Part shown: positions 7,943 to 9,855 of the stretch, piece by piece
Layout of the letters: each line of letters begins with the position of its first letter
How positions within the stretch are numbered: the first letter of the stretch is position 1
Assembly: GCF_000092225.1 (NCBI RefSeq)
Contig: NC_014158.1
Coordinates: forward strand, 3,348,001 to 3,412,000
Source of the DNA: Tsukamurella paurometabola DSM 20162
GTDB taxonomy: Bacteria > Actinomycetota > Actinomycetes > Mycobacteriales > Mycobacteriaceae
Direction of reading: 5' to 3'
Length of the DNA stretch: 64,000 nt
Made by a program: the position numbers and the translations under genes
Notes under the pieces: model-generated
Database searches by the model: none
Seen by the model: the letters and a program-made list of their open reading frames with translations, nothing else
What the model was told of the DNA's origin: nothing

Positions 7943-7946
<4 letters not shown>

Positions 7947-7994
7947 TTCACCACCTTCATCGTCATCCTGGAGTCCACGCGGACGATGGCCGGA
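7943..7994 (-). pseudogene. lrp: 3' remnant of the lrp/asnC-type regulator gene, cut off by IS110
   Basis: Read on the minus strand, the bases just outside the insertion sequence encode [16 protein letters not shown] followed by TGA. This is a typical C-terminal strand of an Lrp/AsnC protein. Joined to the fragment ending ...THLMGDP on the other side of the element, it restores a full-length product in the same frame. The TGA lies inside the GTGA overlap with the downstream kinase gene. The remnant has no start of its own. Confidence 0.85.
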
Positions 7995-8009
7995 TTCTCA
8001 ATGATCCTG

Positions 8010-9224
8010 TCAAGCGGCGGCCGCGGTGATTTGCGGGGCGGCTGGCTGCCAGGTTCGGTTGTCGCGGATGAGGGCGTAGAGCACGTTGACGCGGCGGCGT
8101 GCCAGGCAAATAGTCGCGGGGACGTGCTTCTTTCCCTGAGCGCGTTTTCGCTGGTAGTAGTCTTTGGCGGCGGGATCCCAGCGAGCAGCGCTCACCGCTG
8201 ACAGATACATCACTCTGCGCAGTCCGCGGTGGTAGCGCTGGGGCGTGCATAAGCGTCCGGTCCGTTTGCCAGAGTCTTTCGTGACGGGTGCGAGGCCGGC
8301 CCACGACGCGAGATGATCTGCGGAGAGAATCCGTGAGGTATCGCCGACGGCGGCTAGAAATTCGGCGCCGAGGCGAAATCCCATGCCGGGCAGGCTCACA
8401 ATCGCTTCGGCGAGCGGATGGCGGCGAAACCGTTCCTCGATGGCGGCGTCGGCCGCCTTGATCCGCTTATCGAGGTCGATCACCCCCTGTGCAAGCTCGG
8501 CTACCAGATCTGCGGCGATGGCCTCGCCGGGCAGGGTAATCGACTGCGCCTTAGCCGCGGTGACGGCGGCTTCGGCGATTGGACCTGCGTTCCGCACCCC
8601 TGCATCGGCTAGGACTCGGGTGATCCGTGTGATCCCCGATCGGCGGATTGCCTGGGGCCGCTGGTAGCGGGCCAAAAGCGCGATCCACCCGCGATCGGTG
8701 GAAGGCTGTGCAGCCCGCTCCAGCGCAGGACTGATGGCGACCAGCTGCTGCCGCAGCCGATTGATCGTGCGGGTGCGGTCGGCCACCAGATCCTCACGGT
8801 GAGCGGTGAGCATCGATAGCTCGGTGACCAGGTCATCGTTGGGGCGCAGCAGCGGAAGATCATCGCCCCGCATGCGCCCCTGGTCTGCGATAACCCTCGC
8901 ATCTTTGGCGTCGCTCTTTGCCTCGCCGCCTCGGTAGATCGCCGAGGCCTGCCAGACGGCGCGACCAGTCAGATACCGCACGGAATGCCCGGCTGCGGCG
9001 AGCATCGTCAGCAGGAGGGTCGCGTAAGTGGTGGTCAGGTCCACCGTCCACGACACGGTGCCATCGCGAGATTCAACTTCGGTGATCGCCGCAGCGATCG
9101 AGACCTCATCGTTGGCAACCTTACGAGAGGAGATCACCTTTCCGGCGTCGTCGCAGACAGCCATCCAGTGGAACTCCTTGCCAACATCTACCCCTACCCA
9201 CCAACGACTTTCGCTCTTCACCAT
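8010..9224 (-). CDS. IS110-family transposase (DEDD recombinase)
   Basis: A 404-residue transposase. The N-terminal RuvC-like DEDD domain shows GVDVGKEFH (D13) and KSDAKDARVIAD (D105, D108). The second acidic position is Asp in TVDLTTTYATLL (about D62) where many members have Glu. The C-terminal Tnp domain contains SLPGMGFRLGAEFLAAVGD and HLASWAGLAPVTKDSGKRTG with conserved serines (S307, S318). ATG 9224 is preceded by AGGAGCG; longer starts would reach into the non-coding end. The reading frame is unbroken, so the enzyme may be active. It acts on DNA together with an RNA guide in characterised IS110 relatives. Confidence 0.95.
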   Translation of the reverse strand: MVKSESRWWVGVDVGKEFHWMAVCDDAGKVISSRKVANDEVSIAAAITEVESRDGTVSWTVDLTTTYATLLLTMLAAAGHSVRYLTGRAVWQASAIYRGGEAKSDAKDARVIADQGRMRGDDLPLLRPNDDLVTELSMLTAHREDLVADRTRTINRLRQQLVAISPALERAAQPSTDRGWIALLARYQRPQAIRRSGITRITRVLADAGVRNAGPIAEAAVTAAKAQSITLPGEAIAADLVAELAQGVIDLDKRIKAADAAIEERFRRHPLAEAIVSLPGMGFRLGAEFLAAVGDTSRILSADHLASWAGLAPVTKDSGKRTGRLCTPQRYHRGLRRVMYLSAVSAARWDPAAKDYYQRKRAQGKKHVPATICLARRRVNVLYALIRDNRTWQPAAPQITAAAA

Positions 9225-9470
9225 CTGCGCTCCTGTTCGCTTGTTAGCCCTGTGAGGTGGACCCGATGGGCATCCTCGCCAGCAGGTCCTTAAACAAGCG
9301 ATCGATTTCGCAGATCTCAATCAGCGGCCCGAGGACACCCAGACAGATCGGGTAGCCAATCCGGCCCAGCCGCACCGTAAGGCCGGCAACACCCTAACTA
9401 GCCTCGCCCGATCTGCCCGGGCTTGCAGCCGAACGTAATCCATCGCGCTCGCCTGCACCTATGAACTTAA
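9225..9470 (-). ncRNA. Non-coding left end of IS110; probable bridge RNA locus
   Basis: This 246-base stretch lies between the lrp junction and the transposase start and has no credible gene. In IS110 elements with the non-coding segment upstream of the transposase (IS621 is the studied example), that segment encodes the bridge RNA that pairs with target and donor DNA. Position, size and orientation fit. I could not assign target- or donor-binding loops by eye, so the RNA is inferred from family knowledge and not seen directly. Confidence 0.5.
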
Positions 9471-9471
9471 G

Positions 9472-9855
9472 GATCACCCATGAGATGGGTGGTGAGCCAC
9501 TTCTCGAAGGCCTCCGTATCGGCGACGCGCACCCGGATCAGGTAGTCGGGCAGACCGAACATGCGACGCACCTCGATCACCTCGTCCATCGCGGCGACGC
9601 GAGATTCGAAGGCCTCCACCGACGCCCGGTCGTTGGCAGTGAGATCCGCGTTGATGAGTACCTCGAATCCCCTACCGAGTGCGGCGGGGTCGAGCACGGC
9701 GGTGTACCCGGTGATCACACCGTCGGCCTCGAGGCGGCGCACCCGGCGCAGGCACGGCGCAGGAGTCAGGCCGACGCGATGCGCCAGTTCCTGATTGGTC
9801 AGACGTCCGTCTTTGACCAGTTCGTCCAATATTGCTCGATCCAAGGAATCCACCG
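9472..9855 (-). pseudogene. lrp: Lrp/AsnC-type regulator, C-terminally truncated by IS110
   Basis: 128 codons remain, from a GTG at 9855 (VDSLDRAILDEL) to the IS junction. They include the winged-helix DNA-binding domain (LTNQELAHRVGLTPAPCLRRVRRLEADGVI) and most of the RAM ligand-binding domain (DYLIRVRVADTEAFEKWLT). The frame runs only one codon into the element and stops (TAA 9467-9469), losing the last 15 residues found at 7943-7994. GTGs at 9871-9873 and 9880 are alternative starts. The loss removes the final RAM strand used in oligomer contacts, so function is doubtful. Divergent position to azlCD matches the lrp-brnFE arrangement of Corynebacterium. Confidence 0.85.

Follow-up and report, generated by a model that had tools for sequence, protein, structure and literature searches.

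In the IS110 group, as far as the available text of two papers goes (PMC11208160, PMC11208158), bridge RNA systems such as IS621 combine a DEDD recombinase with a long left end, a two-base core and conservative insertion, and their RNA has a donor loop and a target loop with handshake bases, in which the order is left guide, hairpin and right guide (PMC11208158). An element with counterparts to all of these parts, the two RNA loops being predicted from sequence, lies in the lrp gene of Tsukamurella paurometabola DSM 20162, within the stretch of 64,000 nucleotides analysed here (the window). It differs from IS621 in its core (CC against CT) and in its target, GGGTG(A)TCCGGCC against the REP elements named in the same text (PMC11208160, PMC11208158). 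It further differs in having a left guide that fits in either of two registers and a transposase that matches the IS621 chain 8wt6 at just 39.6 bits (E 3.7e-9). For seekRNA elements, the available part of PMC11187229 describes a related pair, ISEc11/ISXne4, in which a change of the RNA guides goes along with a change of the target sites; those are IS1111-type elements, whereas the sisters found here are IS110-type, 77% identical and housed in one genome.

We consider it very probable that bridge-RNA-guided recombination recently brought the IS110-group element into lrp. A circular form of the element would be read by the donor loop at the CC core, while the target loop would read the target (ATGGGTGAT, then CC, then GGCC) and join it to the circle. 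The left guide TTAGGGTGTT fits GGGTGAT apart from a single mismatch, and GGGCCGG, the right guide, would pair with CCGGCC. Through the insertion Lrp stops at residue 137, with 15 residues removed. As the guides of the predicted bridge RNA fit the lrp site, the choice of lrp would become explainable.

The lrp gene, which runs on the minus strand, was found to be cut 15 codons from its 3' end by an IS110-family element of 1479 bp (Table 1). Its frame closes with ...THLMGDP and a TAA supplied by the element, and the severed tail on the far side ends in a TGA that overlaps the GTG start of the kinase gene (GTGA). When the flanks were joined without the insert, a single continuous lrp frame was obtained; no target base is lost and the CC core alone is common to target and element, so that the insertion is conservative. 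The earlier note on this DNA had proposed an IS110 element near the 3' end of lrp, which is borne out by the domains of the transposase and by the restored frame, and an in-frame original junction, which 11 of 13 orthologues in the genus show as exactly that C-terminus. The GTGA overlap it read is confirmed in the sequence, and the ends it placed at 7996-9474 are equivalent to ours, being of equal length and shifted by 2 bases within the common ATCC. As the same ends recur in the four copies of the element, the boundaries of the lrp insert are fixed independently.

Table 1. Features of the interrupted lrp locus and of the element in it (positions in the window)
Feature	Position	Strand	Basis or remark
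dgdA-like class III PLP enzyme, 428 aa	5707..6993	-	start overlaps kinase stop (GTGA)
APH-fold kinase	6990..7946	-	PF01636 78.4 bits; PDB 6ef6 255 bits; start overlaps lrp stop (GTGA)
Severed lrp 3' end	7943..7993	-	far side of element, ends in TGA
CC core, right junction	7992..7993	-	flanks rebuilt
IS110-family element, 1479 bp	7994..9472	-	one of 4 byte-identical genome copies
IS110 transposase/recombinase, 404 aa	8010..9224	-	ATG at 9224; listed ORF begins TTG 9320
Left end with predicted bridge RNA	9287..9472	-	common fold of 14 aligned left ends
Right donor guide candidate TTTAAGGA	9287..9294	-	pairs with CCTTAAG, one G-U; by eye
Left donor guide candidate ATTGAGATC	9313..9321	-	donor end ATTGAGAATCC; pairing by eye
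Putative handshake bases AT	9359..9360	-	fit donor end ..AT followed by CC
Predicted right target guide GGGCCGG (reverse complement CCGGCCC)	9361..9367	-	match to target
Predicted hairpin separating the two target guides	9369..9387	-	predicted common fold
Predicted left target guide TTAGGGTGTT (DNA letters)	9388..9397	-	most variable alignment block
Truncated Lrp/AsnC-type regulator, 137 aa	9467..9880	-	stop codon inside element
CC core, left junction	9471..9472	-	common to target and element
azlC, divergent	9938..10627	+	PF03591 110.5 bits
azlD	10620..10946	+	PF05437 57.9 bits

The locus was compared with 15 other genomes of the genus, one genome per species. An lrp orthologue at E <=1.5e-65 was present in 13 of them, and none of that grade was detected in G007 (890 contigs) and G015. 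An uninterrupted lrp ending like the window copy was not seen among the 13 orthologues, apart from the one in G005 (L020), which carries a one-base frameshift in exactly the codon where the window copy is cut; this could give Lrp a similar early end, be it real or a sequencing error. The G008 orthologue reads MGDPAIARVDSRMTIKVLK at the cut region and has a longer tail. The divergent azlC, lrp and the kinase gene lie within 1500 bases of each other in 12 of the 13 orthologous loci, and azlD, azlC, lrp, kinase and dgdA follow the same order in G012, G013 and G009, three of the four loci taken in full, in agreement with the order lrp-kinase-dgdA with divergent azlCD that had been suggested as the original one. 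At the G008 locus azlCD and lrp are present, and the kinase and dgdA are absent within the 7 kb examined.

The labels previously given to the kinase, dgdA and azlCD are supported by Pfam and PDB sequence matches. The dgdA product was closest to 2,2-dialkylglycine decarboxylase 1d7r (556 bits vs 218 for the next kind), none of the 25 NCBIfam models listed reached its cut-off, and by closest sequence the product is probably a 2,2-dialkylglycine decarboxylase-like enzyme. A phospho-lyase of the type that pairs a kinase with a class III enzyme was weighed as an alternative and rejected on the scores for dialkylglycine decarboxylase and ethanolamine-phosphate phospho-lyase (556 and 161 bits, respectively). 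A literature search, weak on subscription journals, returned nothing that links dialkylglycine decarboxylase with Lrp.

The AsnC-type HTH of the window Lrp is intact (PF13404 and PF13412 above cut-off), and its RAM domain is incomplete, the Pfam match covering profile positions 9-56 of 73 at 44.5 bits vs 9-72 at 50.8 bits in the intact G012 orthologue. This orthologue matches E. coli Lrp (2gqq) at 99.7 bits, and both HTH and RAM of that protein are shared by the window copy except for its missing final 15 residues, which correspond to the end of the stretch matched with E. coli Lrp. The lost end is presumably the last strand of the RAM fold. Of the earlier statement that the last RAM strand is gone, the loss of the C-terminal RAM end (9-72 to 9-56) is supported. 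We expect the truncated Lrp to be impaired. An alternative we hold to be unlikely is that it still functions and that the insertion is nearly neutral. The intact HTH and the larger part of RAM speak for it, together with the kinase gene, which keeps AAGGTGG within what is left of lrp, a short way ahead of the GTG start (a ribosome-site-like stretch noted by eye), and the G005 frameshift would truncate the protein similarly unless it is a sequencing error. However, 11 of 13 orthologues have exactly the residues that were severed here, so that this end is normally kept, and the RAM score drops as given above.

The element also separates lrp from the kinase-dgdA pair, with which lrp had a 4-base overlap before, and transcription of the pair may have changed. 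The altered control of the exporter and of the decarboxylase operon that the earlier note proposed would be a possible consequence. The element might instead drive these genes from its right end, so that they are rewired rather than silenced, as its transposase gene points in the direction of the operon and an outward-pointing TTGACA (8008-8013) stands 14 bases inside that end. We consider this improbable: a promoter scan of 7800-10050 gave one promoter-like site, on the plus strand inside the element at 8086-8114 (0.5 expected), but no site that would read outward through the right end, and the TTGACA overlaps the transposase stop and may be coding. By eye, the same TTGACA would stand 17 bases from a TAAGTT in the circle of the element. 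The terminator scan of the same region found none.

The transposase was matched by both IS110 domains (PF01548, 155.2 bits; PF02371, 75.5 bits), by NCBIfam NF033542 (224.6 bits, cut-off 140) and by the ISCro4 chain 9t56 (E 1.8e-11), and these matches point to a transposase of the DEDD type that has the N-terminal as well as the C-terminal IS110 domain, as in the IS110 group. The noncoding ends measure 248 nt upstream of the transposase gene (9225-9472) and 16 nt downstream (7994-8009), the long upstream and short downstream arrangement of that group. Membership of the IS1111 group, which requires a long noncoding region downstream, was rejected on the 16 nt found there.

The genome holds four copies of this element that are identical byte for byte over 1479 bp, and three copies of a sister element (f2, 77% identical), one of them on the second contig; CC is present at both junctions in all seven full copies. 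The element is absent from all 15 other genomes of the genus, one of which holds a weak 151-base match, and among 400 other genomes of the family nine match it at E <=1e-30, with nine full-length places that are 70-71% identical. As the copies are identical and the severed lrp end is undecayed, the sequences suggest a recent insertion. Of the other identical copies, L003 (2986-3702) cuts the 3' part of a peptidase C26-type amidotransferase gene, whose homologue in G004 (94%) is uninterrupted at the same place, the other six of the seven congeners searched giving weak hits. L004 stands upstream of a DUF445 gene, where the G012 spacer is uninserted but without the full target sequence, and L002 is flanked by a gene of phage-capsid type on one side and a recombinase gene on the other.

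The fold predicted for the alignment of 14 left ends has an outer stem around the left guide, the hairpin and the right guide. It comprises 59 pairs, 7 of them changed on both sides, with a small covariation term (-2.85 of -65.56 kcal/mol), and the fold of the single sequence 9225-9474 is moderately better than those of shuffles (z -2.76). The most variable 9-column stretches start at alignment columns 77-79, inside the left guide, where the mean entropy is 1.21 (columns 75-86) vs 0.30 elsewhere, and both donor guide candidates are invariant in 14 of 14 rows. Eleven of the 14 rows have GAAAGG as right guide (among them L077, with an extra G), the exceptions being GGGCCGG in the window element, GAGAGG in L083 and GAAATG in L072. 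The right target changes along with it, to CCGGCC, CCTCTC and CATTTC, respectively; the common guide goes with CCTTTC, but L071 and L086 have CCCTTC despite it. The right guide is followed by AT in both Tsukamurella rows, which have the donor end GAGAAT before CC, and by AC in the remaining 12, with the donor end GAGAGT, in agreement with the handshake pairing described for IS621. A search of 7900-9900 against Rfam, which may have no such family, gave three hits at an E limit of 5; each scored under the gathering threshold and none resembled a bridge RNA. Taken by sequence, the left end probably encodes an IS621-type bridge RNA whose target and donor guides match the actual sites; this RNA would be produced and would guide the transposase.

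At lrp the left guide fits GGGTGAT and the right guide CCGGCC, and the left target of the three other identical copies is GGGTGT. Over the four sites the reverse complement of the right guide, CCGGCCC, agrees in 6, 7, 6 and 7 of 7 bases, and the left guide in 6, 6, 7 and 7 of 9. At the lrp site, GGGTGATCCGGCC, the left guide stands flush with one mismatch in seven. Six matches of eight, as at lrp, are equalled at 0.5% of the 12,360 positions before a CC in the window and its complement; the left fit at lrp alone is not striking, and the case therefore rests on left and right jointly and on the sister copies. The three f2 sites have the common right target CCTTTC and left matches of 5, 7 and 6 of 9 bases, the left fit of copy L005 not exceeding what chance would give (P 0.22, scored on 8 bases). 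Of the perfect predicted site GGGTGTCCGGCC the genome has five occurrences, three of them occupied (by reconstruction) and two empty, and GGGTGNTCCGGCC has three other unoccupied occurrences. Empty predicted sites with 12- or 13-base matches were located at G000:C1:45862, 1964154, 750049, 1625550 and 2485544.

Guides were exchanged between sites in a swap test of 12 guide sets on 22 distinct sites, the left guide being allowed flush or one base off the core. Left guides scored a mean of 6.36 on their own sites vs 4.53 when shuffled, with 0 of 20,000 shuffles as high, a count that is no strict probability since the sets are related by descent and not independent. Right guides scored 6.35 vs 5.57, with 19 of 20,000 as high, and this side of the test is the weaker one because 9 of the 12 sets have one right guide in common. 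Row by row, five of the 12 left guides were best on their own sites, three tied and four (those of the window element, L046, L072 and L077) did better on a site of another set; the left guide of the window element has a mean of 6.5 on its own four sites vs 7.0 on the L077 site. Repeats of one site were dropped, both own copies (L008, L038, L040-L045, L070, L080) and others (L047-L050, L074, L076, L088, L089), and L053-L065, L079 and L082 were left out because they were incomplete or too divergent for the end patterns to apply. A match was found in 87 plasmid records, of which 12 covered at least 80%; seven were used at one place per record, H4, H5 and H7 coinciding in position with loci already included and H11 and H12 being left out.

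A plain insertion governed by the DNA preference of the transposase protein, with the RNA-like fold and the guide matches incidental, is very improbable. The moderate z of the single-sequence fold and the four left guides that fit another site better are in its favour, but the targets of related elements differ in step with the variable loop letters, and in a left end that is conserved elsewhere the left guide varies more than any other block. That the assembly put a repeat copy into lrp by mistake, an error to which four identical copies could lead, can practically be dismissed, as core, frame and guide match are all consistent, the L003 copy likewise restores a gene by comparison with its homologue, and the finishing of the published genome with 516 Sanger reads, partly for repeat resolution according to the available text of PMC3156402, counts against it.

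Over the 22 sites the best left fit was one base away from the core in 16, flush in four (lrp, L007, L051, L052) and tied in two (L077, L087). The lrp site fits the left guide only flush, that is, shifted by one base relative to the other three copies. In the congener L009 GGGTGAT likewise precedes its CCC, so that the extra base was likely in the lrp gene before the insertion. One guide fits in both registers in the window element (flush at lrp and shifted at the three other sites), in f2 (flush at L007 and shifted at L005 and L006) and in a rhodococcal guide set (flush at L052 and shifted at four other sites, with a tie at one).

Other genomes and plasmids supplied 15 distinct sites, and in all of these but L072 and L077, hence in 13, the core is flanked by a GA(A/G)(A/G)GG motif and by an ATG or GTG 6-10 bases on; in all the DNA gathered in the analysis such a motif is followed by a start codon in 132 of 627 cases (21%). 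IS900-type mycobacterial IS110 elements have a similar target of ribosome-site motif and start codon, and the relatives of the window element resemble them in lying between the two, whereas the window element itself has another target. Our search, weak on subscription journals, found no literature on IS900 with a ribosome binding site or initiation-codon insertion site. Among the seven plasmid stretches, an annotated gene starts at that codon in four (L085-L088) and not in L083, L084 and L089; the four genes encode an amidase, a succinate-semialdehyde dehydrogenase and two hypothetical proteins, and the relatives in L085-L088 may alter their translation. The left guides of the window element and f2 are without the CAT found in many other left guides, and the right guide of the window element is not ribosome-site-like. 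The start-codon rule alone is passed by one of the seven sites in the genome, that in lrp, on the opposite strand of an lrp Met codon and with the motif absent. The L072 and L077 copies have different core letters at their two junctions, CC at one and CA at the other, as if the core had been mismatched at insertion. A single relative with identical 14-base left and 10-base right flanks was also observed in L046-L050, on contigs named for Mycobacterium nebraskense, sp. WUMAC-067, gordonae, scrofulaceum and helveticum, two of them each 46,910 bases long; this may reflect a shared plasmid or cross-contamination.

From these sites we put forward, tentatively and at rather less than even odds, that the left guide reads its target in two registers, flush or one base off, which would widen the range of usable sites; that the lineage mostly enters junctions of ribosome site and start codon; and that the window element left that class by changing both guides and hit lrp through the second register.

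The break of the gene is itself ordinary and the element of a known kind; the interest lies in the match between guides and site and in the natural retargeting. The strain offers a natural C-terminal lrp mutant for regulatory work. If the proposed reading is true, the RNA of the element itself names the sites that can be entered, and a seemingly accidental gene break becomes predictable. Two sister elements with different guides, together with relatives at other sites, form a natural series on the retargeting of bridge RNA, which also bears on how much freedom there is in the distance from guide to core.
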